From Xiphias gladius (Eukaryota > Chordata > Actinopteri > Istiophoriformes > Xiphiidae), in NCBI RefSeq assembly GCF_016859285.1, contig NC_053420.1:6927501-6991500 (forward strand): a stretch of 64,000 nt of DNA, written 5' to 3'. This document shows positions 2,293 to 64,000 of the stretch, one piece after another (within the stretch, counting starts at the first letter, position 1; each line of letters begins with the position of its first letter). The notes below the pieces were generated by a model. The model saw only the letters and a list, made by a program, of their open reading frames with translations. It was not told the origin of the DNA and searched no databases. Position numbers and translations under genes: made by a program.

Positions 2293-15566
<13,274 letters not shown>

Positions 15567-15570
15567 GCTG

Positions 15571-36469: not shown

Positions 36470-36600
36470 GATCCTTCAGTAAAAGCAGTGAAAGGACAGA
36501 GTGTGGGAAACCAGAGAAAAATGACTCACAGGGCCCCCGTAGAACAAAAGATCAAGACCTCTCCCCTGGAGAGACAGGGGTTAAGAAGGAATGTGGTGGT
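36470..36600 (+). promoter_or_regulatory. her unit 1 upstream module I
   Basis: One TGTGGGAA site (36502-36509) in the conserved context AAAGGACAGAGTGTGGGAAA, the same as module I of every later unit. Modules II and III are absent from this unit. Function as a Notch/RBPJ site is inferred from the motif. Confidence 0.55.
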
Positions 36601-37039
36601 ATCAAAGTGAAAACCTGCTCATATCTTTCAGAATTAATATTACATAATAGTGGACACCAAGAGGTCCAGAAATATGAAATAAAACATCTTGTAGACTAAG
36701 CTATATTTTGGCTATATCTTCTTGTTTATAGCTGTGCGCAGTCTCAACAACAAAAGACATATATGTTAGTATCTAAATTTAAAAAAGAGACATGTCTGAG
36801 TGTATATTTCTGGTGAAATATGTTTTAATGCTTTTTGCCATGAGCAATATTTCATGATATACAACAATTTTGGATATTTTTCATCCCTTTAATGTTACAT
36901 CTTCCAGAATTTCAATAAGTACTGTAGCTTACACAGACATACTTTTATTTAGTTACATGTGGGTTATTCAGTAATTTCTACCTTACATGATATAGTAGTT
37001 GTGTCTTACACATTGACTGTACGTAGAGTCTAATGCAGG
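36601..37039. other. Spacer between module I and promoter of her unit 1
   Basis: AT-rich. Lacks the module II and III sequences found here in other units. Confidence 0.5.
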
Positions 37040-37321
37040 TGCGTGATGGGATGATGAGTATGTGCTCAGTCAAAGTCATTGATTCTGTCCTCCACCTGTT
37101 CCTATGAGATTTAACCATTGTCCACACAGCAATAACAGCATTCAGCATGCTACATCTTTTATTGTCTCACCAAGCTCCCTGATTGGCTGAGACTGTGAGA
37201 AACTCCAACTAGAGCAAGACCCACACATTCATATGGAGATGTGGGACTATAAATAGGAGGGATGAAGCCAGCAGAGATCAGATTCTCTCTACAGAGACCT
37301 CTACAGCACAGAGATCCAGAC
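37040..37321 (+). promoter_or_regulatory. her copy 1 promoter
   Basis: ATTGGCTG (inverted CCAAT) at 37182, RBPJ-like TGTGAGAAA at 37194-37202, ACCCACAC 16 nt later in opposite sense, and TATAAATA at 37248-37255, 74 bp before the ATG. It lacks the GGTCACCACTTTCCCAGATT segment found in the other six promoters. Confidence 0.75.
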
Positions 37322-37830
37322 ATGGCACCTACAATCACTGCAGCAATGACCAACTCTCAGGAGCATCTGACTCTGACCCACAAGGTAAATTGGAGATTCT
37401 AGGAGATTTAATCTTCATTCCTGAGAGGCTGACTTTGTTCATGCTAACTCTTTACTCCAGAACAAGTTTATTCATGACTTTGTTCTTCTTTCTGCAGCTC
37501 AGAAAACCTCTGGTGGAGAAGTTACGCAGAGAGCGAATCAACAGCAGCATTGAGCAGCTCAAGTCTCTCCTGGGTCCAGAGTTCCTCAAACAGCAGCCAG
37601 ACTCTAAGCTGGAGAAAGCAGACATCCTGGAGATGACAGTTTGCTTCCTGACACAGCTGCAGCAGCAGAATCAACAGCAGAGAAGACTGCTGAACCACGT
37701 CAACAAGCTGCAGTCTTCCTCTGATAAGAACCTGAGAGAGGCTGACTTCTCTCTCCTGAGCTCCACAGTCCAGACCAGCATCACCAAAGACAAGAGTCCA
37801 GTCAACAACGCCCTCTGGAGGCCGTGGTAG
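37322..37830 (+). CDS. her4-like: her copy 1: HES5/her4-like bHLH repressor, intact
   Basis: Two exons, 37322-37384 and 37498-37830, with a 113-bp intron (AAG|GTAAAT ... CTGCAG|CTC), 131 aa. The basic region (residues 22-34, LRKPLVEKLRRER) has the HES-family proline. The helix-loop-helix follows to about residue 77 (SKLEKADILEMTVCFL). Then a Q-rich stretch and a short tail end in WRPW (128-131), the Groucho/TLE recruitment motif. HES proteins normally carry an Orange domain between bHLH and WRPW, and none is recognisable. Family knowledge makes it a nuclear repressor and likely Notch target. The neighbouring CSL sites support this. The start codon is the one shared by all copies, 74 bp after TATA. 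her4 versus another HES5-type her name is not settled. Confidence 0.9.
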
Positions 37831-39180
37831 ACACCTGCAGACTGGAGTTTCTACCAGATAAACTGAGATGACCATGTTGGTCAAAGATCACTGGAACTGA
37901 ATTCTATGAAATCTAAGGACTTGTTCTTCTGTATGAACAGAAGGTTGTATTTTGTGTGTTTTTTCTCTTTGTGTAAGACGACGTTTCCTAAGGAAATGGC
38001 AGCAACAATATCTTTCCTGTAAAGAAAGAGATCATCTTGTCATGCGTGTTGCATGAATCAAACATGATTGCATGAGCAATTATTACACCTCACTGTACTT
38101 CATGTATTGGTCGTATATAATGCTATGGTAACATTTGTTATCTTTTGATTGGAATTGATCATTGTGATAAAGTCTGTAAATGTCCTTTTTTATGGACATA
38201 TTGTCTTTATGGACATTACGTCACTTTAATCTCTCTGATTACTCAAAACTGATCTGTTGTAAGATCAAAATGTTTATTCTTTTTTTTTTCCTAATAGTTT
38301 TGTTAAAATCACAATTTTTGGTGATAATTATTATGCTTCACTGTGCGTCATGTATTGGTAAAATATAATGCACTAGTGATATTTGTTACCTCTTGAATAG
38401 TATTGATCATTTTGATTAAACTGTTGTTCTTTCTATGGACATTTTGTCATAATAGACTTTGTGATTACTGAAAACTGATCTGTTATAAGATCAATATGTT
38501 TATCCTTTTACTGTAAAAGGTTTCATTTAATGTCACACTGTCACAGTTTTCCAGTGATAATACAATTTTTACTTTTTGAGAATCAAGTGAACTTAGTGGT
38601 TATTTAGAATAATGTGACCTGTAGTGGGGTCAGTTTTTTCTGTTTTTTCTTTTGTTCATTAACTGCAAACGTTTAATCCATTTGGTAAAAGCTCTCAAAG
38701 GACAGTGAGCACTGTGTCCTCAAATATCTGTCTTTCATAAAGACTGTTGTTCCCTTACTCTCTCTGAGTACAGTGTGTCTTGTAGAAATCTACAGGTTGT
38801 TGTTGTGATGTATCATCACCTCTAGTTGCAGCTTCCATTCTTGTTGTGGATCATTGTGCCTTGTTGAATAAACAAACACTGCCAGATGAAAATGGTGTGT
38901 TCTCATGTCATGTGTGTCATGGTGAAATTTTGATGTGGTTCAGTTGATATTTTTTTTAATGAAGAGAGAGATTATCAGTGTTACCTCACTCTGTTCATAT
39001 GGAATAAGTCAAGTCATCAAACCAAATGAAAAACTATACATTTCAAAGACATTTTTGTTTCACCATTAATTTGGTAGAATTGTCTGTTTCAGGTGTTTTA
39101 ATGTAAAGAATTTAAAATTAACCATTTCCCTCTTTAAAGAGGTCACAAATCGTATTTAATGTGATGTATAATAGGACACA
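37831..39180 (+). other. her copy 1 3' flank, type A
   Basis: Matches the flanks of copies 3, 5, 6 and 7. AATAAA at 38867-38872 could end a ~1 kb 3' UTR. It contains an internal direct repeat (about 38090-38275 and 38330-38510), each half with TGATC-type short stem-loops, and the palindrome GTGATGTATCATCAC near 38803. Confidence 0.6.
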
Positions 39181-40110
39181 CTTCTATTGTTCCTCCAGTG
39201 AAAGCAGTGAAAGGACAGAGTGTGGGAAGCCAGAGGAAACTCACTCACAGAGCCCTGTGGGACAATAGATCCAGACCTTTGCCCTGAAGAGGCACAGATC
39301 AAAAGGGACACTGGCTCCCAAATGGGAACTTCTTGATCTGTTTCTAATCACTGATAGAATTCTAACCTTTTTTTCTTATGATAGCAAATCACATTCACCA
39401 ATTCTACATTTGTTGCCAATTTCTCAAGCTGGGCCGTCGCAAAGTCATTAAATACATTTCTGTCAATTAAAAAAATAAACTGTAAAAAAGGATTATGTAG
39501 AATTTATACTGTGTGATATTTGGTTTGTTTAATTTCATTATAATTTGAGAAATTATGACACTTTTACTTTGAACATAAGACTTTGGAATAGAGAACACTG
39601 TTCAGTGATTGAGCCTCAAATGTCCTTTTGGATTTAAACAAAAACCTTCATTTTGTTTAATGCACAGAGTGTGGGAAAGCTCTGGAGGGCGAGTTTAGAC
39701 TGATTAGCAGCCTTGACTCCACCAGCAGCCGACTATTCTCCAAAGGGATTTGGCACACTTCAGGAAACAGCTGCCTCAGCCTCCCACCCTCGTATATAGA
39801 GCTGAAATTTTGATCCAGTTGGTGATACAATGGCACAATTATGATTGGACTGTCAAAATGTTTGAAAGTTGGCTAAATAATCTGCCAAATCAACTGAGCT
39901 GACCCCTTATGATAAATCTTTCATCATACTTTTAAACACTGCGCACTCTCAGAGCCAGCCAATGGTGCTCTTTCCCTCCAGATGGCTGGTGACGTCAGGT
40001 TCTGTTTCTACTACAACACACATCCAGTATCAGCCACAAAAGCTCCATTCAAAGTCCCTTTGTTGTTCACTGACCACAGCATTCACCGAGTCAGTGTGGG
40101 AAACTGAGAG
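39181..40110 (+). promoter_or_regulatory. her unit 2 upstream modules I-III
   Basis: TGTGGGAA at 39221-39228 (module I), 39670-39677 (II, followed by GATTTGGCACACTTCAGGAA) and 40095-40102 (III). Module III also has a perfect CRE TGACGTCA at 39990-39997 next to CAGATGGC. The three modules recur in the same order upstream of each later her copy. Confidence 0.65.
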
Positions 40111-40470
40111 CAACTTTCTACTCACACTGACGATGAGACACATGTCAGAGGACTGTGCCACAGCTGGCCAGCAGCATGACTGTTGTAATTATGTACCATT
40201 TAAATACATCACGGGCATTACAGCCTTTTTTAATGCCTGGCAGAACTTGCTTCCGAAATACAGCATCTTAAAAAGAACAAGAGTTAGGAAAAAGGTCACA
40301 TTTGGTGAAAAGAGAAATGGAATTGAAATATTAAGAAAAAAAGGAGGATACATGGCATGTATTGTACTTGCTAGATTTAAGTTGTGGCTCAAATGAAGCA
40401 TTAGAGTAAAAAACAAATTCCCAGTAATGATTTAATTTAGTATATGTATACAATTAATTGCTATTTCCCC

Positions 40471-40846
40471 CACGTGTGTGATGGGATGATGAGCGTGTGC
40501 TCAGTCAAGTCATTGATCCCAGCATCAGGCAGCAGATCTGCTCTCTACAGGGTCACCACTTTCCCAGATTCACACAGAGCTCTGTGAGTCCCCCCCCCCC
40601 AGTCATCCACCTGTTCCCCTGAGATCTAACTATTGTCCCTGAGGCAATGTAACACCATTCAGCATGATGCCGCTCCACACGCCTTATAGTCTCACCAGGC
40701 TCTCTCATTGGCTGAGACTGTGAGAAACTCCAACTAGAGCAAGACCCACACATTCATATGGAGATGTGGGACTATAAATAGGAGGGATGAAACCAGCAGA
40801 GATCAGATTCTCTCTACAGAGACCTCTACAGCACAGAGATCCAGAC
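40471..40846 (+). promoter_or_regulatory. her copy 2 promoter
   Basis: CACGTG near 40472, a conserved TGATGGGATGATGAGCGTGT segment, CATTGGCTG, TGTGAGAAA at 40719-40727, and TATAAATA at 40773-40780, 74 bp before the ATG. Confidence 0.75.
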
Positions 40847-41355
40847 ATGAAACCTACAATCACTGCAGCAAGGACCAACTCTCAGGAGCATCTGACTCTG
40901 ACCCACAAGGTAAATTGGAGATTCTAGGAGATTTAATCTTCATTCCTGAGAGGCTGACTTTGTTCATGCTAACACTTTACTCCAGAATAAGTTTATTCAT
41001 GACTTTGTTCTTCTTTCTGCAGCTCAGAAAACCTCTGGTGGAGAAGTTACGCAGAGAGCGAATCAACAGCAGCATTGAGCAGCTCAAGTCTCTCCTGGGT
41101 CCAGAGTTCCTCAAACAGCAGCCAGACTCTAAGCTGGAGAAAGCAGACATCCTGGAGATGACAGTTAGCTTCCTGACACAGCTGCAGCAGCAGAATCAAC
41201 AGCAGAGAAGACTGCTGAACCACGTCAACAAGCTGCAGTCTTCCTCTGATAAGAACCTGAGAGAGGCTGACTTCTCTCTCCTGAGCTCCACAGTCCAGAC
41301 CAGCATCACCAAAGACAAGAGTCCAGTCAACAGCGCCCTCTGGAGGCCGTGGTAG
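40847..41355 (+). CDS. her4-like: her copy 2: HES5/her4-like bHLH repressor, intact
   Basis: Exons 40847-40909 and 41023-41355, 131 aa. The N-terminus differs from copy 1 (MKPTITAART rather than MAPTITAAMT), and the second helix reads EMTVSFL rather than EMTVCFL. bHLH and WRPW are intact, with no Orange domain. The intron is almost identical to the other copies. The downstream flank switches to type B about 110 nt after the stop. Confidence 0.9.
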
Positions 41356-43149
41356 ACACCTGCAGACTGGAGTTTCTACCAGATAAACTGAGATGACCAT
41401 GTTGGTCAAAGATCACTGGAACTGAATTCTATGAAATTTAAGGACTTGTTCTTCTGTATGAACAGAAGGCCTTTTAATTACTTTATGTTTACTTCAAACT
41501 TTCTTATTGAGAAAAACATCATGTCCTGTGGAAATAGCGAAACAAAGTAACATTATCTTTCGTATTAAGAAAGAGCCTTTGTCATGCATGTTGCATGAAT
41601 CATATCAACATTAAGCAAATGAGAATTTATCTTGGCACAAAACTGTTCACCACTTGGTGGTGGTACTTGATGAAATGAAGTATACTACTTCTGGAGTGTC
41701 TGATCATTTTGATCAAAAACTTTGTTCTTTGTCTGGACATTTTCTCTCAGCTGACTTCATTTTAATGTCTTTGATTACTAAGTATTGGTCAGTTATCAGA
41801 TCAACATGTATATTTTTTAAATTCTTTTGTTGTTTTCATGAGAATGTATTGACTTTACTTGATATTAACCTGCATGGATCACTATGTGATTATCCTAAAT
41901 TGATCTGTTCTAAGATCAGTTCTTCTTCTTGGACTTTCTGATAAAGTGCAGATTATGCTCATTTTGAAACATGTTTTATGTAAATCTGAATGAATATGAA
42001 TCTCACACCGTTTGTCTTTTGTAAAGACGACTGTTCCTTGACTCATTTTGAGTGCAGTGTGTCTTGGTGATGTTACCAAGTTATAGTTGTGATGTATAGT
42101 CACAACTATCTTCCTCTAGTAGGAGCTTTCATAAAATGAATAACTGAGTTCAATTCAGTAACTAAATCAATGTAAACTAATGAATTTTGGTGTTCATGCG
42201 TCATTTCTTCTTATGCTTAGTTATGCTGTTATAATTAGGGATGGTTTTTTCCAGTGTCCCTTTTAGAATTTCTCTCACATAACTAACTGAGTGCTGCAGC
42301 ATCACTCTATAATACTGACAAACATCAGCATTCACACCTGGCAGAGGAGTGCTTTTCCATAAATACACATGCAGCCATAATTTTAGTTTCAAAGTGAGAA
42401 TAGTACATTTTCATTTGGATTGATGGCGAGATTTGATGAATTGACATCATCCATCCCACACAGTTTACATGCAGTGGGTCACTGTTAGTCACCAAACCAA
42501 GTGGAGAAATTTTCTTTGTCTCTACTCTTCACCGTCTTTTGTAAAGACGACTCTTCCTCTTCTGAGTACAGTTTGCAGATGTTACCAAGTTATTGTTGCG
42601 ATGTATCATCACACCTATCTGCCTCCAGTGGAAAATGTCATACTTTATCCCTGATTTGTTTGAAGAAAAACATAATCTAATCAGCAGCATTTTGTGCTCA
42701 CGTGTTTGTTCTTTAACTGGATAGCTACATTTCAGCGATGAAGGATAAATTCTACAATTGTTCTGTCATGCATTTTTTGCTCCCCCATTGATAGAGTGCT
42801 CTGTCATCGTAATCATGGTTCGAATAACAAATCAAATCTGCAACTTGATTCCCTCACTATTATGTGCACCTTAATATTTAGTTTAAATCAAAGCAGAGTA
42901 CATTTTCATGAGGACTGATGAAGAGATTTCATGAACTGACATCATCCATGTCCCTATTTTTAAGTGCAGGGGCTCATTGCAAGTATACAAACCAAGTGGG
43001 GACATATTCATTGTGTCTCTATTTATGGTGACAAATTTGGTGTGCCATAATCTTTAGGCAGTCGTCAGTTCAAGGTGTTGGAATGTGAAAACTTTTAAAG
43101 TGACATGTTTTCTCCTAAAGACAAGCCACACATTACAGCTAATGTGATG
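41356..43149 (+). other. her copy 2 3' flank, type B
   Basis: After CTGTATGAACAGAAGG the sequence leaves type A and follows CCTTTTAATTACTTTATG, shared only with copy 4. It contains related stem-loop words (TGATCATTTTGATCA near 41700, GATCTGTTCTAAGATC near 41900). No gene seen. Confidence 0.55.
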
Positions 43150-44340
43150 CACACTAAGACACACTTGGATTGTTCCTCCACTGAAAGGACAGACTGTGGG
43201 AAACCAGAGAAAACTCACTCACAGACCCCCAGTGGGACAATAGATCCAGACCTCCGCCCCAAAGAGACAGATGTTAAAAGTGAATTGAAGTACTAAAACT
43301 AAAATACGTCCATGTGTTTCAAATCAGTTTTGTAAATTGAGCACTGTTGAAACAATATCTAAAAGTTCATCATTAACAGTTGTGATGATGTTGCCAGTTG
43401 ATTTTTGTTTTAAAATATCCTTAAATGTCCTATCACAACATATCAGTTACATAACATGTTATATTGAACTATAACCCAAAATCTCAAATTCAAAATCCAT
43501 CTGATGTTTTCCAAAATTTCTGACCATAATCTCAGATAAAATTAGTCTTAATACTAGTGAGATGAAACAGAACATTTTTAAAATATGAATGTTATCCATA
43601 TTGATTCTGTGCACTTAAGAACCATTTTACTCTTCGCTCAGAGTATGTTTTTTACATTGTAAGTTTTCCAAGAATGTGAATGATTAATGTACAGGTCTGC
43701 TACGTTAATAACTTATTAAAAATGATTTGTTTCCAAATAAAATCTTGAGAAGCCTTTATCTTGGAAAACAAAAAAAGTACACTAAAATTAAACACAAGAA
43801 ATTGCTTCTGCATGTGCCGGCTAGAATACCTCTCTTAACACAGCACACACCAAACTTTAATTTAATGGACAAAGTGTGGGAAAGCTCTGAAGATGAGAGT
43901 CACAGTTCAAGTTGATTAGCATTCTTAATCACACAATCAGCTGCCTCTTGTCAAGGGGGATTTGGCACACTTCAGGAAACAGCTGTCTCAACCTCCGACC
44001 CTCATGTGAACATGTGAAATATTGATCCATTTGACGATACAAGAAATTCCTTTTGACTGGGTAGTTAAGTTTACTGCAAGTGTAACTTGAAAAAGTGGAA
44101 GCCCATTTAGTATGATCGCTGACATTTTACTTTTGTGATGAATTTTCATAATTCTGTTACAACATCAAAGTCAGCCAGTAAGGTTCTTTCCCTCCAGATG
44201 GTTGGTGACGTCAGGCTGTGTCTCAATTACAGCACGGGTCCAACATTTTTCACCACAGCTCCTTTTGTAGTGCACCGACTACTCAAAGACTGTGGGAATC
44301 TGAGAGCAAATTTCTACTCACACCAACTACCAACCTAAAG
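43150..44340 (+). promoter_or_regulatory. her unit 3 upstream modules I-III
   Basis: TGTGGGAA at 43195-43202, 43875-43882 and 44291-44298, in the module I, II and III contexts. Module III has TGACGTCA near 44207. Confidence 0.6.
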
Positions 44341-44689
44341 AAAGAGGACACTCCTGCTACATCTGGACACCAGGAAGACTTTGTCTAAATTTAATCATTA
44401 ATAACTATAAGAAAATAAAATGATATCTGCTGTTGTCTCCCAGTGCCTTGCAGCACTGCAAAAAGCTTTCATTTTAAAATAAAATGTAATACTTTGGTAA
44501 TTTGCATACACTGCAACACAGCACAGAGCAAAGTAATTATTATATGAAAGTAAATGTGGGATGTGAGACTTTCTAAATTTTAATACATTTTCTAATTACA
44601 ATTACATATAGTTACACATATTTTATAGACCACCAGGTGATTTTGCTGTAATAAACAGACTGTATGTAGATTCTTTGGTTTCACATGTG

Positions 44690-45059: not shown

Positions 45060-45568
45060 ATGGCACCTACAATCACTGCAGCAATGACCAACTCTCAGGA
45101 GCATCTGACTCTGACCCACAAGGTAAATTGGAGATTCTAGGAGATTTAATCTTCATTCCTGAGAGGCTGACTTTGTTCATGCTAACTCTTTACTCCAGAA
45201 TAAGTTTATTCATGACTTTGTTCTTCTTTCTGCAGCTCAGAAAACCTCTGGTGGAGAAGTTACGCAGAGAGCGAATCAACAGCAGCATTGAGCAGCTCAA
45301 GTCTCTCCTGGGTCCAGAGTTCCTCAAACAGCAGCCAGACTCTAAGCTGGAGAAAGCAGACATCCTGGAGATGACAGTTTGCTTCCTGACACAGCTGCAG
45401 CAGCAGAATCAACAGCAGAGAAGACTGCTGAACCACGTCAACAAGCTGCAGTCTTCCTCTGATAAGAACCTGAGAGAGGCTGACTTCTCTCTCCTGAGCT
45501 CCACAGTCCAGACCAGCATCACCAAAGACAAGAGTCCACTCAACAGCGCCCTCTGGAGGCCGTGGTAG
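45060..45568 (+). CDS. her4-like: her copy 3: HES5/her4-like bHLH repressor, intact
   Basis: Exons 45060-45122 and 45236-45568, 131 aa, MAPTITAAMT start as in copy 1. bHLH intact, tail KDKSPLNSALWRPW, no Orange domain. Its downstream flank is type A. Confidence 0.9.
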
Positions 45569-47089
45569 ACACCTGCAGACTGGAGTTTCTACCAGATAAA
45601 CTGAGATGACCATGTTGGTCAAAGATCACTGGAACTGAATTCTATGAAATTTAAGGACTTGTTCTTCTGTATGAACAGAAGGTGGTATTTTGTGTTTTTT
45701 CTCTTTGTGTAAGACGACGTTTCCTATGGAAATGACAGCAACAATATCTTTCATGTAAAGAAAGAGAACATCTTGTCATGCGTGTTGCATGAATCAAACG
45801 TGATTGCATGAGCAATTATTACACCTCACTGTACTTCATGTATTGGTCGTATATAATGCTATGGTAACATTTGTTATCTTTTGATTGGTATTGATCATTG
45901 TGATAAAGTCTGTAAATGTCCTTTTTTATGGACATATTGTCATTATGGACATTACGTCACTTTAATTTCTCTTATTACTCAAAACTGATCTGTTTTAAGA
46001 TCCAAAAGTTTATAACTTTTTTCTAATAGTTTTGTTAAAATCACAATTTTTGGTGATACTTATTATGCTTCACTGTGCGTCATGTATTGGTAAAATATAA
46101 TGCACTAGTGATATTTGTTACCTCTTGAATAGTATTGATCATTTTGATCAAAATCTTAATTGTTCTTTTTATGGACATTTTGTCATAATAGACTTTGTGA
46201 TTAGTGAAAACTGATCTGTTATAAGATCAATATGTTTATTCTTTTACTGTAAAAGGTTTAATTCAATGTCACACTGTCACAGTTTTCCAGTGATAATACA
46301 ATTTTTACTTTTTGAGAATCAAGTGAACTTAGTGACTATTTAGAATAATGTGACCTGTTGTGGGGTCAGTTTTTTCTGTTTTTTCTTTTGTTCATTAACT
46401 GCAAACGTTTAATCCATTTGGTAAAAGCTCTCAAAGGACAGTGAGCACTGTGTCCTCAAATATCTGTCTTTCATAAAGACTGTTGTTCCCTTACTCTCTC
46501 TGAGTACAGTGTGTCTTGTAGAAATCTACAGGTTGTTGTTGTGATGTATCATCACCTCTAGTTGCAGCTTCCATACTTGTTGTGGCTCATTGTGCCTTGT
46601 TGAATAAACAAACACTGCCAGATGAAAATGGTGTTCTCATGTCATGTGTGTCATGGTGACCTTCTTTATCATGATGAAAGACAGACATCCTCCTTTTTTT
46701 TCATTGTCAATCCATTGATAGATGTCTACATCATTGTTCTACATTTGATTAAAAACTCAAAAATTCAGCAAACATAGTTACGGTTTATCCATAACACACC
46801 TGTTTTGTGTAAATCTAAGCACAGTAAATTTTTAATGTGGTTCAGTTGATTTTTTTTTTAATGAAGAGAGAGATTATCAGTGTTACCTCACTCTGTTCAT
46901 ATGGAATAAGTCAAGTCATCAAACCAAATGAAAAACTATACATTTCAAAGACATTTTTGTTTCACCATTATTTTGGTAGAATCTTCTGTTTCAGGTGTTT
47001 TAATGTAAAATATTTAAAGGTAAGCATTTCTTTTTTAAAGAGGTCACAAATCGTATTTAATGTGATGTATAATAGGACACACTTCTATT
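45569..47089 (+). other. her copy 3 3' flank, type A
   Basis: Close match to 37831-39180, including the internal direct repeat. AATAAA at 46603-46608. Confidence 0.55.
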
Positions 47090-48010
47090 GTTCCTCCAGT
47101 GAAAGCAGTGAAAGGACAGAGTGTGGGAAGCCAGAGGAAACTCACTCACAGAGCCCTGTGGGACAATAGATCCAGACCTTTGCCCTGAAGAGACACAGAT
47201 CAAAAGGGACACTGGCTCCCAAATGGGAACTTCTTGATCTGTTTCTAATCACTGATAGAATTCTAACCTTTTTTTCTTATGATAGCAAATCACATTCACC
47301 AATTCTACATTTGTTGCCAATTTCTCAAGCTGGGCCGTCGCAAAGTCATTAAATACATTTCTGTCAATTAAAAAAATAAACTGTAAAAAAGGATTATGTA
47401 GAATTTATACGGTGTGATATTTGGTTTGTTTAATTTCATTATAATTTGAGAAATTATGACAATTTTACTTTGAACATAAGACTTTGGAATAGAGAACACT
47501 GTTCAGTGATTGAGCCTCAAATGTCCTTTTGGATTTAAACAAAAACCTTCATTTTGTTTAATGCACAGTGTGGGAAAGCTCTGCAGAGATGAGTTTAGAC
47601 TGATTAGCAGCCTTGAATCCACCAGCAGCCGACTATTCTCCAAAGGGATTTGGCACACTTCAGGAAACAGCTGCCTCAGCCTCCCACCCTCGGTTATAGA
47701 GCTGAATTTTTGATCCAGTTGGTGATACAATGGCACAATTATGATTGGACTGTCAAAATGTTTGAAAGTTGACTAAATAATCTGCCAAATCAACTGAGCT
47801 GACCCCTTATGATAAATCTTTCATCATACTTTTAAACACTGCACACTCTCAGAGCCAGCCAATGGTGCTCTTTCCCTCCAGATGGCTGGTGACGTCAGGT
47901 TCTGTTTCTACTACAAAACACACATCCAGTATCAGCCACAAAAGCTCCATTCAAAGTCCCTTTGTTGTTCACTGACCACAGCATTCACCGAGTCAGTGTG
48001 GGAAACTGAG
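47090..48010 (+). promoter_or_regulatory. her unit 4 upstream modules I-III
   Basis: TGTGGGAA at 47122-47129, 47569-47576 and 47997-48004. The block is almost identical to that of unit 2, with TGACGTCA in module III. Confidence 0.6.
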
Positions 48011-48374
48011 AGCAACTTTCTACTCACACTGACGTTGAGACACATGTCAGAGGACTGTGCCACAGCTGGCCAGCAGCATGACTGTTGTAATTATGTACCA
48101 TTTAAATACATCACGGGCATTACAGCCTTTTTTAATGCCTGGCAGAACTTGCTTCCGAAATACAGCATCTTAAAAAGAACAAGAGTTTGGAAAAAGGTCA
48201 CATTTGGTGAAAAGAGAAATGGAATTGAAATATTAAGAAAAAAAGGAGGATACATGGCATGTATTGTACTTGCTAGATTTAAGTTGTGGCTCAAATGAAG
48301 CATTAGAGTAAAAAACAAATTCCCAGTAATGATTTAATTTAGTATATGTATACAATTAATTGCTATTTCCCCCA

Positions 48375-51790: not shown

Positions 51791-52734
51791 AGAAAAAACC
51801 TATTCTCACTTTAAAAATAGACAGAAAAAGGCAGATTTTGCACTGAATTTTATATAGATTGTATATAAACTCAATAGTTTCATGTGCACCTCACTGTACT
51901 TCATGTATTGGTCCTATATAATGCCATGGTAACATTTGTTATCTTTTGATTGGTATTGATCATTGTGATAAAGTATGTAAATGTCCATTTTTATGGACAA
52001 ATTGTCTTTATGGACATTACGTCACTTTAATTTCTCTGATTACTCAAAACTGATCTGTTGTAAGATCAAAATGTTTATTCTTTTTTTTTTCCTAATAGTT
52101 TTGTTAAAATCACAATTTTTGGTGATACTTATTATGCTTCACTGTGCGTCATGTATTGGTAAAATATAATGCACTAGTGATATTTGTTACCTCTTGAATA
52201 GTATTGATCATTTTGATCAAAATCTTAATTGTTCTTTCTATGGACATTTTGTCATAATAGACTTTGTGATTACTGAAAACTGATCTGTTATAAGATCAAT
52301 ATGTTTATCCTTTTACTGTAAAAGGTTTCATTTAATGTCACACTGTCACAGTTTTCCAGTGATAATACAATTTTTACTTTTTGAGAATCAAGTGAACTTA
52401 GTGGTTATTTAGAATAATGTGACCTGTAGTGGGGTCCCCTTTTTCTGTTTTTTCTTTTGTTCATTAACTGCAAACGTTTAATCCATTTGGTAAAAGCTCT
52501 CAAAGGACAGTGAGCACTGTGTCCTCAAATATCTGTCTTTCATAAAGACTGTTGTTCCCCTACTCTCTCTGAGTACAGTGTGTCTTGTAGAAATCTACAG
52601 GTTGTTGTTGTAATGTATCATCACCTCTAGTTGCAGCTTCCATTCTTGGAAAGAATTTAAAATTAACCATTTCCCTCTTTAAAGAGGTCACACATCGTAT
52701 TTAATGTGATGTATAAAAGGACACACTTCTATTG
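51791..52734 (+). other. Type A 3' flank without its her gene
   Basis: From about 51886 the sequence matches the type A flank starting about 260 bp after a her stop codon (CACCTCACTGTACTTCATGT). About 95 bp of unrelated DNA separates it from module III. The promoter, both exons and the first part of the flank are missing. Confidence 0.65.
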
Positions 52735-53960
52735 TTCCTCCAGTGAAAGCAGTGAAAGGACAGAGTGTGGGAAGCCAGAGGTAACTCACTCACAGAACCC
52801 TGTGGGACAATAGATCCAGACCTTTGCCCTGAAGAGACACAGATCAAAAGGGACACTGGCTCCCAAATGGGAACTTCTTGATCTGTTTCAAATCATATAT
52901 CAAATTTTAACCCTTTTTTTCATCATGGTAAAATTCCCAGCAGTTTTACATTTATTGCCATTTCCTAAAGTTGACACTTGACACAATCATTGAAAAAAAA
53001 AATCTGTCAAAAATGTAAAGTGTAAAAGTAGATTGTTATTTATGATTAAAATTATACAATATTTGGTATGTTTAATTTCACCAACATTTCACTATTACAG
53101 CCTTATATTTTTCCATTGAAAACAAGACATTGTAAAAAAGAACATTTTTAAGTAATAAAATCAGGCAAGTCACTGTTTTACTGAAAGAATATGACTATAG
53201 CCAAGTATCACGTGTTGAACTCAGTGCATGTTGGTTACATTTACACTATAGGTTATAAAACAAAAACATTTGAATGTCATTGTTGATATCCCCAATGGAT
53301 TCCATTACTTCAGATTTTGACTGGGTATATTTTGGAATTCAGTCTTGATGAGCTTTTCACGGTAAAAAGAAAAATATGGACTCAACATGTTGAAAGAGAA
53401 GTCTCCAAAGGTCAATTTGGATTCAGGCAGAGCCTTCATTTTGTTTAATGCACAGAGTGTGGGAAAGCTCTGGAGGGCGAGTTTAGACTGATTAGCAGCC
53501 TTGACTCCACCAGCAGCCGACTATTCTCCAAAGGGATTTGGCACACTTCAGGAAACAGCTGCCTCAGCCTCCCACCCTCGTATATAGAGCTGAAATTTTG
53601 ATCCAGTTGGTGATACAATGGCACAATTATGATTGGACTGTCAAAATGTTTGAAAGTTGGCTAAATAATCTGCCAAATCAACTGAGCTGACCGCTTATGA
53701 TAAAGCTTTCAACATACTTTTAAACACTGCACACTCTCAGAGCCAGCCAATGGTGCTCTTTCCCTCCAGATGACTGGTGACGTCAGGTTCTGTTTCTACT
53801 ACAACACACATCCAGTATCAGCCACAAAAGCTCCATTCAAAGTCCCTTTGTTGTTCACTGACCACAGCATTCACCGAGTCAGTGTGGGAAACTGAGAGCA
53901 ACTTTCTACTCACACTGACGATGAGACACATGTCAGAGGACTGTGCCACAGCTGGCCAGC
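52735..53960 (+). promoter_or_regulatory. her unit 5 upstream modules I-III
   Basis: TGTGGGAA at 52766-52773, 53458-53465 and 53883-53890. Modules II and III are nearly identical to units 2 and 4. The 52900-53440 spacer is unique. Confidence 0.6.
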
Positions 53961-54257
53961 AGCATGACTGTTGTAATTATGTACCATTTAAATACATCAA
54001 GGGTATTAGAGCCTTTTTTAATGCCTGGCAGAACTTGCTTCCGAAATACAGCATCTTAAAAAGAACAAGAGTTTGGAAAAAGGTCACATTTGGTGAAAAG
54101 AGAAATGGAATTGAAATATTAAGAAAAAAAGGAGGATACATGGCATGTATTGTACTTGCTAGATTTAAGTTGTGGCTCAAATGAAGCATTAGAGTAAAAA
54201 ACAAATTCCCAGTAATGATTTAATTTAGTATATGTATACAATTAATTGCTATTTCCC

Positions 54258-54643: not shown

Positions 54644-55152
54644 ATGACACCTACAATCACTGCAGCAATGACCAACTCTCAGGAGCATCTGACTCTGACC
54701 CACAAGGTAAATTGGAGATTCTAGAAGATTTAATCTTCATTCCTGAGAGGCTGACTTTGTTCATGCTAACACTTTACTCCAGAACAAGTTTATTCATGAC
54801 TTTGTTCTTCTTTCTGCAGCTCAGAAAACCTCTGGTGGAGAAGTTACGCAGAGAGCGAATCAACAGCAGCATTGAGATGCTCAAGTCTCTCCTGGGTCCA
54901 GAGTTCCTCAAACAGCAGCCAGACTCTAAGCTGGAGAAAGCAGACATCCTGGAGATGACAGTTTGCTTCCTGACACAGCTGCAGCAGCAGAATCAACAGC
55001 AGAGAAGACTGCTGAACCACGTCAACAAGCTGCAGTCTTCCTCTGATAAGAACCTGAGAGAGGCTGACTTCTCTCTTCTGAGCTCCACAGTCCAGACCAG
55101 CATCACCAAAGACAAGAGTCCACTCAACAGCGCCCTCTGGGGGCCGTGGTAG
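54644..55152 (+). CDS. her4-like: her copy 5: bHLH intact, WRPW changed to WGPW
   Basis: Exons 54644-54706 and 54820-55152, 131 aa, start MTPTITAAMT. Differences from the other copies are SSIEMLKS (Gln to Met in the first helix) and a C-terminal WGPW in place of WRPW (CTGGGGGCCGTGG). The Arg of WRPW is part of the Groucho/TLE-binding tetrapeptide, so co-repressor recruitment may be weakened. The frame is open, and the in-frame upstream stretch from 54505 is not used because the TATA and ATG spacing fixes the start. Confidence 0.88.
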
Positions 55153-56509
55153 ACACCTGCAGACTGGAGTTTCTACCAGATAAACTGAGATGACCATGTT
55201 GGTCAAAGATCACCGGAATTGAATTCTATGAAATCTAAGGACTTGTTCTTCTGTATGAACAGAAGGTGGAATTTTTGTTTTTTCTCTTTTTGTAAGACGA
55301 CGTTTCCTATGGAAATGACAACATTATCTTTCATGTAAAGAAAGAGATCATCTTGTCATGCGTGTTGCATGAATGAAACGTGATTGCAGGAGCAATTATC
55401 ACACCTCACTGTACTTCATGTATTGGTCATATATAATGCTATGGTAACATTCGTTATCTTTTGATTGGTATTGATCATTGTGATAAAGTCTGTAAATGTC
55501 CATTTTTATGGACATATTGTCTTTATGGACATTACGTCACTTTAATTTCTCTGATTACTCAAAATTGATCTGTTTTAAGATCCAAAAGTTTATAACTTTT
55601 TTCTAATAGTTTTGTTAAAATCACAATTTTTGGTGATACTTATTATGCTTCACTGTGACTCATGTATTGGTAAAATATAATGCATAGTGATATTTGTTAC
55701 CTCTTGAATAGTATTGATCATTTTGATCAAAATCTTAATTGTTCTTTCTATGGACATTTTGTCATAATAGACTTTGTGATTAGTGAAAACTGATCTGTTA
55801 TAAGATCAATATGTTTATTCTTTTACTGTAAAAGGTTTAATTCAATGTCACACTGTCACAGTTTTCCAGTGATAATACAATTTTTACTTTTTGAGAATCA
55901 AGTGAACTTAGTGACTATTTAGAATAATGTGACCTGTTGTGGGGTCAGTTTTTTCTGTTTTTTCTTTTGTTCATTAACTGCAAACGTTTAATCCATTTGG
56001 TAAAAGCTCTCAAAGGACAGTGAGCACTGTGTCCTCAAATATCTGTCTTTCATAAAGACTGTTGTTCCCTTACTCTCTCTGAGTACAGTGTGTCTTGTAG
56101 AAATCTACAGGTTGTTGTTGTGATGTATCATCACCTCTAGTTGCAGCTTCCATTCTTGTTGTGGATCATTGTGCCTTGTTGAATAAACAAACACTGCCAG
56201 ATGAAAATGGTGTGTTCTCATGTCATGTGTGTCATGGTGAAATTTTGATGTGGTTCAGTTGATATATTTTTTAAAGAAGAGAGAGATTATCAGTGTTACC
56301 TCACTCTGTTCATATGGAATAAGTCAGGTCATCAAAGCAAATGAAAAACTATACATTTCAAAGACACTTTTGTTTCACCATTATTTTGGTAGAATTGTCC
56401 GCTTTCAGCTGTTTTAATGTTAAATATTTAAAGGTAAGCATTTCTTTTTTAAAGAGGTCACACATCGTATTTAATGTGATGTATAATAGGACACACTTCT
56501 ATTGTTCCT
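55153..56509 (+). other. her copy 5 3' flank, type A
   Basis: Type A, with AATAAA at 56182-56187. Confidence 0.55.
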
Positions 56510-57840
56510 CCAGTGAAAGCAGTGAAAGGACAGAGTGTGGGAAGCCAGAGGAAACTCACTCACAGAGCCCTGTGGGACAATAGATCCGGACCTTTGCCCT
56601 GAAGAGGCAGAAATCAAAAGGGACTCCTGCTCTAAAAAGGGGAACTTGTTTCAAACCACTTGCTGTGTAAATGGACAGGGTAAAGTTGGACGTAGACTTG
56701 GTTTGGTTTGTTTGTCCAAAAATGTAGCTGTATATTGGCAGAAGTCCCAACAGAAAGAACAGAACCAGGCTTTCTAGGAGTGGAGGAGCTGGGCTGACTG
56801 GCTGCACCTGAGCAACATTAGCTGTTAGCCCTTAACTGTTGGGGGGATGGCTTCGCTGCTGCTTATGTCTGTCAAGCTTTAGACTCGACTGAATTTCTTC
56901 ATGTGTTGCACTTCTCTCATCCCTAATATTTCCCCATCTGCTGCCCTAACTAGACTCTCTAGCACTGGTGTAAACTTTAAGTCACAAAAAAAAGTTTCTG
57001 AGACCATTTAAATGTCACGTTTTCATGTCAGCGGGTGAAGTCAATTCTGTGTGAAGGTCTGTATCTAGTGTCCACTTCTCGTCACATTAATTATGACCTG
57101 AGTCGACAAAATTGGACAATCACAAGTAATGAACATGACATTTTAGCCTCTTACAATATCAATGAATTATTCACATGTCAACATTGTGAAGTAGTAATTC
57201 TTAATTTTCACATATTGTTCCAGTGACCACTTTTTCACTTTAACTATTTGTTGACTGGACACCACTGCCCACACAGTGCTTGTACACAGAACCCTCAAAA
57301 GACTCCATTTACAGTGAGGCACATGTCTATTTTTTGCTAATGGAGGGAGAGTGGGAAAGCTCTGGAGGGCAAAGCTGAGTGTGAACCACGTCCACTCCAC
57401 CAGCAGCAAAGTAATTTCCCAAAGGGATTTGGCACACTTCATGAAACAATTAGGCTACCCCCCCAGTAAACCTCCCACCCACATGCACAGAGCCTAAATT
57501 TAAATCCCACTGATGGTCAGTAATGAGACATGATTATGACTGAAAGTTTGAAATGTACGACAATAACTGGAAGCTGTGAATGTGAGATGCTAAGTCACTT
57601 TATTGATATTTTACGACAGATTTTTCACCATAATTTCAAATTTTACAAACTGTCAGTGCCAGCCAATGGGATCCTTTCCCTCCAGATGGCTGGTGATGTC
57701 AGACTCTGTTTCCATAACAACACACAGCCAGCATCTGTCACAGACGTCCCATTGTTGTCCATTGAGCGCAGCTCAGGGAGTCAGTGTGGGAAACGGAGCT
57801 CAGCTTGTTACTCACACTGACTACAAGGCACGTGTCTAGA
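56510..57840 (+). promoter_or_regulatory. her unit 6 upstream modules I-III
   Basis: TGTGGGAA at 56536-56543 (I) and 57785-57792 (III). Module II has AGTGGGAA at 57350-57357. The CRE is mutated to TGATGTCA. Long spacers within the unit are shared only with unit 7. Confidence 0.6.
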
Positions 57841-58154
57841 GACTCTGCTACATCTGGGCAGCAGCATGATGTTTGTCTTGACTTTATTTTAAATGCCATG
57901 AATGGGATTCACACTGTTTTCTGACATCTTATGGTGTCATCTTTTTTTTTTGCTAAATGGTGCATTTTTAAAAGCAAAATATGATTTAAAAAATCATGTA
58001 TAAAATGAAATATCAAATTAAATTATAAATTCAAAATAGAGGGATTTCACCTGCTAGAGTGCTGGAAAAAAGAAAGATAAGTTGTTCTTAGTGTACATCT
58101 TCATTTTAATCCTATGTGTAATCCATACATTACAACATTACACATATTTTCCCC

Positions 58155-58536
58155 CACATGCGTGATGGGATGATGAGCGTGTGCTCAGTCAAAGTCATTG
58201 ATCCCAGCATCAGGCAGCAGATCTGCTCTCTACAGGGTCACCACTTTCCCAGATTCACACAGAGCTCTGTGAGTGTCTCTCTATCACCCCCAGTCCTCCA
58301 CCTGTTCCCTGAGATCTAACTATTGTCCCTGAGGCAATGTAACACCATTCAGCATGATGCTGCTCCACACGCCTTATTGTCTCACCGAGCTCTCTGATTG
58401 GCTGAAACTGTGAGAAACTCCAACTAGAGCAAGACCCACACATTCATATGGAGATGTGGGACTATAAATAGGAGGGATGAAACCAGCAGAGATCAGATTC
58501 TCTCTACAGAGACCGCTACAGCACAGAGATCCAGAC
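58155..58536 (+). promoter_or_regulatory. her copy 6 promoter
   Basis: Same block. TATAAATA at 58463-58470, 74 bp before the ATG. Confidence 0.75.
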
Positions 58537-59045
58537 ATGGCACCTACAATCACTGCAGCAATGACCAACTCTCAGGAGCATCTGACTCTGACCCACAAGG
58601 TAAATTGGAGATTCTAGGAGATTTAATCTTCATTCCTGAGAGGCTGACTTTGTTCATGCTAACACTTTACTCCAGAACAAGTTTATTCATGACTTTGTTC
58701 TTCTTTCTGCAGCTCAGAAAACCTCTGGTGGAGAAGTTACGCAGAGAGCGAATCAACAGCAGCATTGAGCAGCTCAAGTCTCTCCTGGGTCCAGAGTTCC
58801 TCAAACAGCAGCCAGACTCTAAGCTGGAGAAAGCAGACATCCTGGAGATGACAGTTTGCTTCCTGACACAGCTGCAGCAGCAGAATCAACAGCAGAGAAG
58901 ACTGCTGAACCACGTCAACAAGCTGCAGTCTTCCTCTGATAAGAACCTGAGAGAGGCTGACTTCTCTCTCCTGAGCTCCACAGTCCAGACCAGCATCACC
59001 AAAGACAAGAGTCCACTCAACAGCGCCCTCTGGAGGCCGTGGTAG
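58537..59045 (+). CDS. her4-like: her copy 6: HES5/her4-like bHLH repressor, intact
   Basis: Exons 58537-58599 and 58713-59045, 131 aa, MAPTITAAMT start, WRPW end, no Orange domain. It is the intact partner of the broken copy 7 in a 4064-bp near-identical duplication. Confidence 0.9.
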
Positions 59046-60569
59046 ACACCTGCAGACTGGAGTTTCTACCAGATAAACTGAGATGACCATGTTGGTCAAA
59101 GATCACTGGAACTGAATTCTATGAAATCTAAGGACTTGTTCTTCTGTATGAACAGAAGGTGGTATTTTGTGTGTTTTTTCTCTTTTTGTAAGACGACGTT
59201 TCCTATGGAAATGACAGCAACAATATCTTTCCTGTAAAGAAAGAGATCATCTTGTCATGCGTGTTGCATGAATCAAACATGATTGCATGAGCAATTATTA
59301 CACCTCAGTGTACTTCATGTATTGGTCGTATATAATGCCATGGTAACATTTGTTATCTTTTGATTGGTATTGATCATTGTGATAAAGTCTGTAAATGTCC
59401 TTATTTATGGACATATTGTCTTTATGGACATTACGTCACTTTAATTTCTCTGATTACTCAAAATTGATCTGTTTTAAGATCCAAAAGTTTATAACTTTTT
59501 TCTAATAGTTTTGTTAAAATCACAATTTTTGGTGATACTTATTATGCTTCACTGTGCGTCATGTATTGGTAAAATATAATGCACTAGTGATATTTGTTAC
59601 CTCTTGAATAGTATTGATCATTTTGATTAAACTGTTGTTCTTTCTATGGACATTTTGTCATAATAGACTTTGTGATTACTGAAAACTGATCTGTTATAAG
59701 ATCAATATGTTTATCCTTTTACTGTAAAAGGTTTCATTTAATGTCACACTGTCACAGTTTTCCAGTGATAATACAATTTTTACATTTTGAGAATCAAGTG
59801 AACTTAGTGGTTATTTAGAATAATGTGACCTGTAGTGGGGTCAGTTTTTTCTGTTTTTTCTTTTGTTCATTAACTGCAAACGTTTAATCCATTTGGTAAA
59901 AGCTCTCAAAGGACAGTGAGCACTGTGTCCTCAAATATCTGTCTTTCATAAAGACTGTTGTTCCCTTACTCTCTCTGAGTACAGTGTGTCTTGTAGAAAT
60001 CTACAGGTTGTTGTTGTGATGTATCATCACCTCTAGTTGCAGCTTCCATTCTTGTTGTGGATCATTGTGCCTTGTTGAATAAACAAACACTGCCAGATGA
60101 AAATGGTGTTCTCACGTCATGTGTGTCATGGTGACCTTCTTTATCATGATGAAAGACAGACATCTTCCTTTTTTTTCATTGTCAATCCATTGATAGATGT
60201 CTACATCATTGTTCCTACCTTTGACTGACAAATCAAGATAAAATTAAGCACATAGTAACAGTCGATTCATGACATACCTGTTTTGTGTAAGTCTAAGCCC
60301 AGTAAATTGTAAAGTGGTTCAATTAAGATTTTTGATGAAGAGGGATTATTGATGTTATGTCACTTTGTTTAGTTGGAATAAGTCAAGTCATCAAACCAAA
60401 TGAAAAACTATACATTTCAAAGACACTTTTGTTTCACCATTATTTTGTAGAATCTTCTGTTTCAGCTGTTTTAATGTTAAATATTTAAAGGTAAGCATTT
60501 CTTTTTTAAAGAGGTCACACATCGTATTTAATGTGATGTATAATAGGACACACTTCTATTGTTCCTCCA
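59046..60569 (+). other. her copy 6 3' flank, type A
   Basis: Type A flank with AATAAA at 60078-60083, followed by a segment also found after copy 3 (TTCTTTATCATGATGAAAGA). Confidence 0.55.
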
Positions 60570-61900
60570 GTGAAAGCAGTGAAAGGACAGAGTGTGGGAA
60601 GCCAGAGGAAACTCACTCACAGAGCCCTGTGGGACAATAGATCTGGACCTTTGCCCTGAAGAGGCAGAGATCAAAAGGGACTCCTGCTCTAAAAAGGGGA
60701 ACTTGTTTCAAACCACTTGCTGTGTAAATGGACAGGGTAAAGTTTGACGTAGACTTGGTTTGGTATGTTTGTCCAAAAATGTAGCTGTATATTGGCAGAA
60801 GTCCCAACAGAAAGAACAGAACCAGGCTTTCTAGGAGTGGAGGAGCTGGGCTGACCGGCTGCACCTGAGCAACATTAGCTGTTAGCCCTTAACTGTTGGG
60901 GGGGATGGCTTCGCTGCTGCTTATGTCTGTCAAGCTTTAGACTCGACTGAATTTCTTCATGTGTTGCACTTCTCTCATCCCTAATATTTCCCCATCTGCT
61001 GCCCTAACTAGAGTCTCTATCACTGGTGTAAACTTTAAGTCACAAAAAAAAGTTTCTGAGACCATTTAAATGTCACGTTTTCGTGTCAGCGGGTGAAGTC
61101 AATTCTGTGTGAAGGTCTGTATCTTGTGTCCACTTCTCGTCACATTAATTATGACCTGAGTCGACAAAATTGGACAATCATAAGTAATGAACATGACATT
61201 TTAGCATCTTACAATAACAATGAATTATTCACAGGTCAACATTGTGAAGTAGTAATTCTTAATTTTCACATATTGTTCCAGTGACCACTTTTTCACTTTA
61301 ACTATTTGTTGACTGGACACCAATGCCCACACAGTGCTTGTACACAGAACCCTCAAAAGACTCCATTTACAGTGAGGCACATGTCTATTTTTTGCTAATG
61401 GAGGGAGAGTGGGAAAGCTCTGGAGGGCAAAGCTGAGTGTGAACCACGTCCACTCCACCAGCAGCAAAGTAATTTCCCAAAGGGATTTGGCACACTTCAT
61501 GAAACAATTAGGCTACCCCCCCAGTAAACCTCCCACCCACATGCACAGAGCCTAAATTTAAATCCCACTGATGGTCAGTAATGAGACATGATTATGACTG
61601 AAAGTTTGAAATGTACGACAATAACTGGAAGCTGTGAATGTGAGATGCTAAGTCACTTTATTGATATTTTACGACAGATTTTTCACCATAATTTCAAATA
61701 TTACAAACTGTCAGTGCCAGCCAATGGGATCCTTTCCCTCCAGATGGCTGGTGATGTCAGACTCTGTTTCCATAACAACACACAGCCAGCATCTGTCACA
61801 GACGTCCCATTGTTGTCCATTGAGCGCAGCTCAGGGAGTCAGTGTGGGAAACGGAGCTCAGCTTGTTACTCACACTGACTACAAGGCACGTGTCTAGAGA
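60570..61900 (+). promoter_or_regulatory. her unit 7 upstream modules I-III
   Basis: TGTGGGAA at 60593-60600 and 61843-61850, with AGTGGGAA at 61408-61415. Nearly identical to unit 6. Confidence 0.6.
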
Positions 61901-62216
61901 CTCTGCTACATCTGGGCAGCAGCATGATGTTTGTCTTGACTTTATTTTAAATGCCATGAATGGGATTCACACTGTTTTCTGACATCTTATGGTGTCATCT
62001 TTTTTTTTTTGCTAAATGGTGCATTTTTTAAGAGCAAAATATGATTTAAAAAATCATGTATAAAATGAAATATCAAATTAAATTATAAATTCAAAATAGA
62101 GGGATTTCACCTGCTAAAGTGCTGGAAAAAAAGAAAAATAAGTTGTTCTTAGTGTACATCTTCATTTTAATCCTATGTGTAATCCATACATTACAACATT
62201 ACACATATTTTCCCCC

Positions 62217-62600
62217 ACATGCGTGATGGGATGATGAGCGTGTGCTCAGTCAAAGTCATTGATCCCAGCATCAGGCAGCAGATCTGCTCTCTACAGGGTC
62301 ACCACTTTCCCAGATTCACACAGAGCTCTGTGAGTGTCTCTCTATCACCCCCCCAGTCCTCCACCTGTTCCCCTGAGATCTAACTATTGTCCCTGAGGCA
62401 ATGTAACACCATTCAGCATGATGCTGCTCCACACGCCTTATTGTCTCACCGAGCTCTCTGATTGGCTGAAACTGTGAGAAACTCCAACTAGAGCAAGACC
62501 CACACATTCATATGGAGATGTGGGACTATAAATAGGAGGGATGAAACCAGCAGAGATCAGATTCTCTCTACAGAGACCGCTACAGCACAGAGATCCAGAC
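62217..62600 (+). promoter_or_regulatory. her copy 7 promoter
   Basis: Same block. TATAAATA at 62527-62534, 74 bp before the ATG. Confidence 0.75.
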
Positions 62601-63109
62601 ATGGCACCTACAATCACTGCAGCAATGACCAACTCTCAGGAGCATCTGACTCTGACCCACAAGGTAAATTGGAGATTCTAGGAGATTTAATCTTCATTCC
62701 TGAGAGGCTGACTTTGTTCATGCTAACACTTTACTCCAGAACAAGTTTATTCATGACTTTGTTCTTCTTTCTGCAGCTCAGAAAACCTCTGGTGGAGAAG
62801 TTACGCAGAGAGCGAATCAACAGCAGCATTGAGCAGCTCAAGTCTCTCCTGGGTCCAGAGTTCCTCAAACAGCAGCCAGACTCTAAGCTGGAGAAAGCAG
62901 ACATCCTGGAGATGACAGTTTGCTTCCTGACACAGCTGCAGCAGCAGAATCAACAGCAGAGAAGACTGCTGAACCACGTCAACAAGCTGCAGTCTTCCTC
63001 TGATAAGAACCTGAGAGGCTGACTTCTCTCTCTCCTGAGCTCCACAGTCCAGACCAGCATCACCAAAGACAAGAGTCCACTCAACAGCGCCCTCTGGAGG
63101 CCGTGGTAG
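62601..63109 (+). pseudogene. her4-like: her copy 7: premature stop, WRPW lost
   Basis: Exons 62601-62663 and from 62777. Two bases are missing from the GAGAGAG run near 63015, giving LRG and TGA at 63020-63022 (102 aa). Two extra bases in the following TCTCTCTC run restore the original frame, so WRPW and TAG (63098-63109) remain, but beyond the stop. The bHLH is intact. Confidence 0.82.
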
Positions 63110-64000
63110 ACACCTGCAGACTGGAGTTTCTACCAGATAAACTGAGATGACCATGTTGGTCAAAGATCACTGGAACTGAATTCTATGAAATCTAAGGACT
63201 TGTTCTTCTGTATGAACAGAAGGTGGTATTTTGTGTGTTTTTTCTCTTTTTGTAAGACGACGTTTCCTATGGAAATGACAGCAACAATATCTTTCCTGTA
63301 AAGAAAGAGATCATCTTGTCATGCGTGTTGCATGAATCAAACATGATTGCATGAGCAATTATTACACCTCAGTGTACTTCATGTATTGGTCGTATATAAT
63401 GCCATGGTAACATTTGTTATCTTTTGATTGGTATTGATCATTGTGATAAAGTCTGTAAATGTCCTTATTTATGGACATATTGTCTTTATGGACATTACGT
63501 CACTTTAATTTCTCTTATTACTCAAAATTGATCTGTTTTAAGATCCAAAAGTTTATAACTTTTTTCTAATAGTTTTGTTAAAATCACAATTTTTGGTGAT
63601 ACTTATTATGCTTCACTGTGCGTCATGTATTGGTAAAATATAATGCACTAGTGATATTTGTTACCTCTTGAATAGTATTGATCATTTTGATCAAAATCTT
63701 AATTGTTCTTTCTATGGACATTTTGTCATAATAGACTTTGTGATTACTGAAAACTGATCTGTTATAAGATCAATATGTTTATCCTTTTACTGTAAAAGGT
63801 TTCATTTAATGTCACACTGTCACAGTTTTCCAGTGATAATACAATTTTTACATTTTGAGAATCAAGTGAACTTAGTGGTTATTTAGAATAATGTGACCTG
63901 TAGTGGGGTCAGTTTTTTCTGTTTTTTCTTTTGTTCATTAACTGCAAACGTTTAATCCATTTGGTAAAAGCTCTCAAAGGACAGTGAGCACTGTGTCCTC
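63110..64000 (+). other. her copy 7 3' flank, type A, cut by the window edge
   Basis: Type A flank still aligned with copies 1, 3, 5 and 6 at base 64000, so the array may continue to the right. Confidence 0.6.

Follow-up and report, generated by a model that had tools for sequence, protein, structure and literature searches.

How does a tandem array of developmental genes come to hold copies that are almost the same at the genes themselves and so unlike in the DNA between them, and what would such an array make? The question is raised by a 64,000-bp stretch of Xiphias gladius DNA (assembly GCF_016859285.1; NC_053420.1, here C21; C21:6927501-6991500), which we call the window and which belongs to a source assembly of 690.8 Mb in 1,298 contigs. 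A sequence-only reading had described the right-hand part of the window as a Notch-type her array with repeated regulatory modules; that description is supported by the sequence, but it overlooked that the copies have lost the core of the Orange domain, which their neighbours keep. We think it probable that the locus is a her4/HES5-type Notch-target cluster in which an Orange-less form fills ten units with homogenised cores, each copy having its own Notch input. A tandem her4/HES5 array is already a known kind of locus; the new part is the amplified Orange-less variant.

All seven start codons of the sequence-only reading were confirmed as those of two-exon basic helix-loop-helix (bHLH) genes on the forward strand (Table 1), and their reported spacing of 3.5-5.9 kb was measured as 3,525 to 5,886 bp between neighbouring starts. 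The seven window copies share one plan: exon 1 is 63 bp long, the GT-AG intron measures 113 bp, and a single exon 2 follows. All seven carry the basic-region motif KP..EK.RR.RIN. The earlier count of seven genes is therefore right for bHLH copies but too high for intact ones: an intact protein of 131 amino acids (aa) ending in WRPW is encoded by four of the seven (copies 1, 2, 3 and 6), and copies 4, 5 and 7 are without the C-terminal WRPW. Pfam recognized an HLH domain in the proteins of copy 1 (expect value, E, 6.6e-14) and copies 3/6 and in each exon 2 scanned (copies 1, 2, 3, 5 and 6), and the closest solved structure was that of HES-1 (2mh3, E 1.4e-10).

The array had been said to run to the window edge, and it continues beyond. 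Past 64000 lie a further three array copies, with starts at 66659, 72311 and 76363 (window numbering continued) and WRPW intact in each, so that the whole array has 10 copies, 7 of them with frame and WRPW intact. Two full-length relatives of 161 aa, both ending in WRPW, adjoin it at 83674 on the reverse strand and 87234 on the forward strand. The single direction claimed for the genes thus holds inside the window but not past 64000, where one of the two full-length relatives is inverted.

The Pfam Orange model (Hairy_orange, PF07527) matched the full-length relatives at residues 88-120 with 26.3 and 26.2 bits (cut-off 25.3, E about 1e-5). Neither the copy 1 protein nor the copy 3/6 protein, the latter scanned together with the relatives at a limit of E 1, had an Orange match, and at a limit of E 0.1 the exon 2 sequences (copies 1, 2, 3, 5 and 6) had none in 5/5 scanned. 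A nucleotide alignment of all 12 sequences placed the same 90-bp in-frame deletion in 10/10 array copies and 0/2 full-length relatives, and by hand count the deleted stretch takes out about 20 of the 33 Orange-matched residues. If the Orange domain is general among HES/HEY proteins, as PMC3396596 reports, its loss is the derived state. By their sequences, the window copies classify as HES/her-type genes on bHLH in all seven and WRPW in 4/7, with Orange absent; the array copies thus derive from her4-like genes and are not strictly bHLH-Orange proteins.

In related Hey proteins, the HLH and Orange parts jointly mediate homo- and heterodimerisation (PMC4466309). An AlphaFold2 model of exon 2 gave a single long helix over residues 37-73, with a mean predicted local distance difference test score of 66 and a predicted template modelling score of 0.35; its input was five near-identical sequences, and the model is a hint only. 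HLH helix 2, joined to the end of what was the Orange region, may form an extended helix like that of bHLH-zipper proteins. Our literature search on Orange-less HES proteins, her/E(spl) gene conversion and fish her4 expansion found no Orange-less homogenised her4 array, which is not proof of absence.

Across all ten array copies, near-identity is a property of the core. From -129 to +353, a stretch holding the RBPJ site, TATA box, exon 1, intron and HLH, the ten array copies are 97.5-100% identical to one another and 96.3-97.3% identical to the two full-length relatives. Across 60-bp windows from -129 to +590, taken over 8 of the 21 pairs among the seven window copies, identity was 95-100%, except for one window at 85% that spans the copy 7 indels. 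Upstream of -129, copies 1 and 3 are the first to lose identity, and in most pairs core homology stops near -390; past +590, identity between the two classes of 3' flank drops to 68% and then below 50%. Class A flanks follow copies 1, 3 and 5-10 (90.5-99.2% within the class), class B flanks follow copies 2 and 4 (98.3%), the classes are 55.6-57.8% alike, and the flanks of the full-length relatives are different again. Class A flanks also contain ~200-bp repeats (38078-38509 and the same place in the others), about 71-75% alike.

The upstream regulatory modules differ by class too. Modules II-III, compared with unit 1 and the inverted full-length copy left out and with the empty unit contributing no core, fall into four classes (units 2/4/5; unit 3; the empty unit; units 6-10), 97.2-99.8% identical within and 59.5-71.6% between; those of the forward-strand full-length copy are 45-49% like every class. 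The earlier picture of near-identical copies with enhancer duplication thus stands for the cores and not for these modules. Nor does every unit have modules I, II and III with a TATA promoter: TATA boxes and RBPJ modules are present, but modules II and III were not found in unit 1, and the RBPJ consensus is missing at the module II place in units 6 and 7, where the II-III block still aligns. The one empty unit was borne out. Its modules run through 91-98 bp without a match into a class A flank, and its promoter and gene are thus missing. Unit 5 is a chimera of unit-2-class modules and a class A 3' flank.

Recent serial duplication without conversion would account for likeness of this kind, and locally it has occurred: units 6 and 7 form a whole-unit pair at 98.2% and units 2 and 4 one at 96.6%, and modules II-III are within 97.2-99.8% throughout units 6-10. 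We rejected it as a full account because the flanks are unlike. Flank modules are 45-72% identical across classes (the forward full-length copy included) against 96-100% for the cores, core homology stops near -390 in most pairs, identity falls at about +590 between classes A and B, and unit 5 combines the modules of one class with the 3' flank of another. That duplication alone made the copies alike is thus quite unlikely. Strong purifying selection on the protein fares worse still, and we give it hardly any credence. As such selection would have it, most copies have an unchanged HLH region, but mean differences over the 45 array pairs were 0.004 at synonymous sites and 0.010 in the intron, no greater than the 0.0105 at nonsynonymous sites (synonymous counts limited to codons before indels, 101 in one count and 77 in the 45-pair count). 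Constraint is insufficient because the introns are alike too, and the intron and synonymous data led us to reject it as the cause of identity.

Diverged enhancers next to near-identical cores therefore mean that the units are old and that their cores have been homogenised. The pattern indicates gene conversion or unequal crossing-over as the probable agent. Cores more alike than flanks, together with chimeric units, are the mark of concerted evolution, and both are present at this locus.

It is also very improbable that the array is an assembly artefact, with an inflated copy number or with frame breaks and a deletion that are consensus errors. Both frame breaks come from 2-bp changes that fall within short CT/AG runs, and modules II-III are 99.8% identical in units 6/7 and in units 8/10, as errors or false duplication might leave them. 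Even the closest whole-unit pair still differs by 1.8%, however, and the joined 114 kb at the locus contain no N. A protein search of the source assembly (48 candidates, all scored; matches counted at E up to 0.001) gave 32 her4-like matches, confined to C21 and C18 and on no other contig. A pure 1,432-bp (GA)n run nearby suggests a long-read assembly, and an identical 90-bp deletion in ten copies is unlikely as a read error. Nothing that we found speaks strongly for an artefact.

Does each copy have its own Notch input? The RBPJ consensus YGTGRGAA occurs 27 times forward and once in reverse in 36400-64000, where 200 first-order Markov sequences gave means of 2.2 forward and 2.7 reverse and maxima of 6 and 7. 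Over 36400-77900 the counts are 36 forward versus 3 reverse; in 1-36399 they are 2 forward and 4 reverse, the forward ones including an upstream site at 35733 that aligns poorly with module I and so was assigned to no unit. Because many of the array's sites are copies of one another, a strand test on them overstates the case. In 12/12 copies the promoter has its RBPJ site at -128 and its TATA box near -75. In 10/11 forward-strand promoters (the exception is copy 9) the site is paired head-to-head with a degenerate one across exactly 16 bp, and by eye the inverted full-length copy has the same paired layout. It recurs in module III of nine units; in the empty unit the spacing is 14 bp.

Additional HES-like genes lie on C18 at 10.755-10.763 Mb and on C21 near 0.43 Mb, and we take these to be her2/her15 and her12-like sets. 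The interval C21:427722-436192 holds a second HES-like group on the array's own chromosome, presumably two her12/her15-like genes and one hes2-like gene. Of five of these other genes, all but C18 gene A have a consensus RBPJ site in the 900 bp that precede exon 2, and C18 gene C is almost identical to the array over the block that runs from RBPJ site to TATA box. The C18 cluster also has a module I, RBPJ site included (L014:9288-9403, reverse strand, 76.7% over 116 bp, E 1e-17). In the fetched C18, C21:0.4 Mb and neighbouring loci, neither modules II-III nor either 3' flank had a match; module I and the promoter did, as did short stretches ahead of the forward full-length copy. Since module I and the promoter block are common to the C18 genes, these elements are older than the array, and they may well predate the teleost genome duplication.

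From the observed anatomy of the locus, its deletion, its mosaic divergence and its conserved sites, we infer expression, a Notch response, repressor activity and conversion as the mechanism. A 90-bp in-frame deletion would have removed the Orange core from one gene form, which came to occupy ten tandem units. The units would descend from several old lineages, with gene conversion and/or unequal crossing-over keeping their cores from diverging. Each copy would have its own Notch input through the -128 RBPJ site, set in a Hes5-like pair, the TATA box and the upstream RBPJ modules, and the intact copies would most likely be switched on together by Notch through RBPJ. The product would be a bHLH-WRPW repressor, made at high dose, that keeps its DNA-binding and WRPW parts and lacks Orange; this form may raise the dose of repressor, or may compete with the full-length form or divert it. 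A more specific version, which we offer tentatively and consider rather unlikely, is that conversion spread the deletion allele, which strips the protein of the domain that chooses its partners, through ten units with old and distinct enhancers, and that the Her4 which Notch now yields in this lineage is for the most part Orange-less and competes with the full-length proteins or diverts them.

A serious rival is that the copies are redundant and decay neutrally. Here unequal crossing-over resizes the array by birth and death, the Orange-less copies are redundant, and the full-length pair and the other HES genes do the work. Such an account takes over the anatomy and the homogenisation and differs on function, so that the weight we give to it, somewhat short of an even chance, overlaps with that given to a Notch-driven Orange-less cluster. 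Broken or altered copies (3/10), an empty unit and an excess of nonsynonymous over synonymous difference all fit it. The 7/10 frames intact with WRPW and the -128 site and TATA box in 12/12 would speak for function, but homogenisation alone could keep them.

Several points weigh against a functional Orange-less her4 cluster. The her4/HES5 naming of the copies is our assumption, made on the N-terminal and HLH motif and on the cluster context. The excess of nonsynonymous over synonymous difference among array copies (0.0105 vs 0.0038, on few changes) gives no sign of purifying selection between them, and the three altered or damaged copies are as consistent with decay as with function. The 16-bp pairing was spotted by eye ahead of the scan and counted without a shuffled control. 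The Orange model is a weak detector here: it missed C18 gene A, in which the motif is kept by eye, and it scored C18 gene C at 24.5 bits and one C21:0.43 Mb gene at 17.7 bits, both below the cut-off. Human HES3 also has no significant Pfam Orange match, according to the sections cited of PMC3396596.

If the copies do work as a Notch-target cluster, the locus is a natural experiment, in which near-identical promoters drive neighbouring Orange and Orange-less forms of a single Notch effector. It makes testable the role of Orange in vivo and the spread of a domain loss through a developmental array by homogenisation, and it allows enhancer divergence and homogenisation of the coding core to be separated within one locus.

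The features of the array in the window are given in Table 1, where the module edges of units 2 and 3 were placed 130 bp beyond the outer RBPJ sites.

Table 1. Array features in the window, in window coordinates; single numbers after RBPJ are site positions.
Feature	Position	Strand	Remarks
Unit 1 module I	36407-36618	+	RBPJ 36502; left edge of array homology
Copy 1 proximal promoter	37194-37321	+	RBPJ TGTGAGAA at -128, N16, GACCCACA, TATA box near -75; same layout ahead of other copies
Copy 1	37322-37830	+	Exons 37322-37384, 37498-37830; 131 aa, WRPW intact, without Orange
Class A 3' flank, part	38078-38925	+	Two diverged ~200-bp repeats, 38078-38283 and 38326-38509
Unit 2 modules I, II, III	39091-40225	+	RBPJ 39221, 39670, 40095; module III has TGTGGGAA-N16-TACTCACA
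Copy 2	40847-41355	+	Exons 40847-40909, 41023-41355; 131 aa, WRPW intact; then class B 3' flank
Unit 3 modules I-III	43065-44420	+	RBPJ 43195, 43875, 44291; separate old class
Copy 3	45060-45568	+	Exons 45060-45122, 45236-45568; 131 aa, WRPW intact
Unit 4 block	46824-50436	+	Recent copy of unit 2, 96.6% identical to 38922-42523; modules 47122, 47569, 47997, then the gene and a class B flank
Copy 4	48758-49305	+	Exons 48758-48820, 48934-49305; 2-bp loss in CT run gives 144 aa, no WRPW
Empty unit	50544-52648	+	RBPJ 50607, 51263, 51712; class A flank 51887-52648; promoter and gene gone
Unit 5 modules I-III	52675-54010	+	RBPJ 52766, 53458, 53883; II-III belong to unit 2/4 class
Copy 5	54644-55152	+	Exons 54644-54706, 54820-55152; WGPW end; one Q to M change in HLH
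Unit 6 modules	56441-57915	+	RBPJ I 56536, III 57785; no consensus site at II
Copy 6	58537-59045	+	Exons 58537-58599, 58713-59045; 131 aa, WRPW intact
Unit 7	60304-64000	+	RBPJ I 60593, III 61843; 98.2% identical to 56240-59932
Copy 7	62601-63022	+	Exons 62601-62663, 62777-63022; 2-bp loss, then nearby 2-bp gain; stop after 102 aa

Elsewhere in the window, forward-strand open frames at 28034-30855 end in VTTV; Pfam gave no match for them, and we take them to resemble a PDZD4/PDZRN-type C-terminal part. A reverse-strand open frame at 15183-15629, also without a Pfam match, presumably resembles the N-terminus of ATRIP. None of the left-hand frames tried received a usable Pfam name, NCBIfam gave chance-level matches for three, and Rfam had nothing in the window at gathering scores. 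The (GA)n array measures about 1.8 kb (3621-5425), its pure run lying at 3841-5272.

Among known systems, the zebrafish her4 cluster is similar in its near-identical tandem HES5-type genes, alignable TATA promoters and Notch dependence (PMC3396596, PMC10112928). The zebrafish genes her4.1-4.5 and her12 lie on chromosome 23, and her2, her15.1 and her15.2 on chromosome 11 (PMC10112928); the near-identical genes described there number five (PMC3396596), in contrast to the ten plus two here. Stickleback has a species-specific HES5 cluster of nine sequences, lineage-specific and similar in size, in which "cluster" refers to grouping in a tree (PMC3396596). These two cases temper the claim that the present array is in an unusual state; what remains new is the Orange-less variant. 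HES5 genes have 2-3 exons (PMC3396596), and the two exons of the array genes fit this number. Expanded HES5 clusters are also found in Xenopus, hes5.1 and hes5.3, with hes5.3-5.9 forming one group; the sections cited of PMC8320183 do not mention domain loss. In the Hes5 sequence-paired site a canonical and a cryptic RBPJ site face each other head-to-head across a 16-bp gap, and in the cited part of that work the isolated Hes5 pair did not act dimer-dependently (PMC7685452). The array promoters and module III have the same 16-bp head-to-head layout with a degenerate second site. In contrast to Hes5, the array repeats the pair unit by unit, together with further RBPJ modules.

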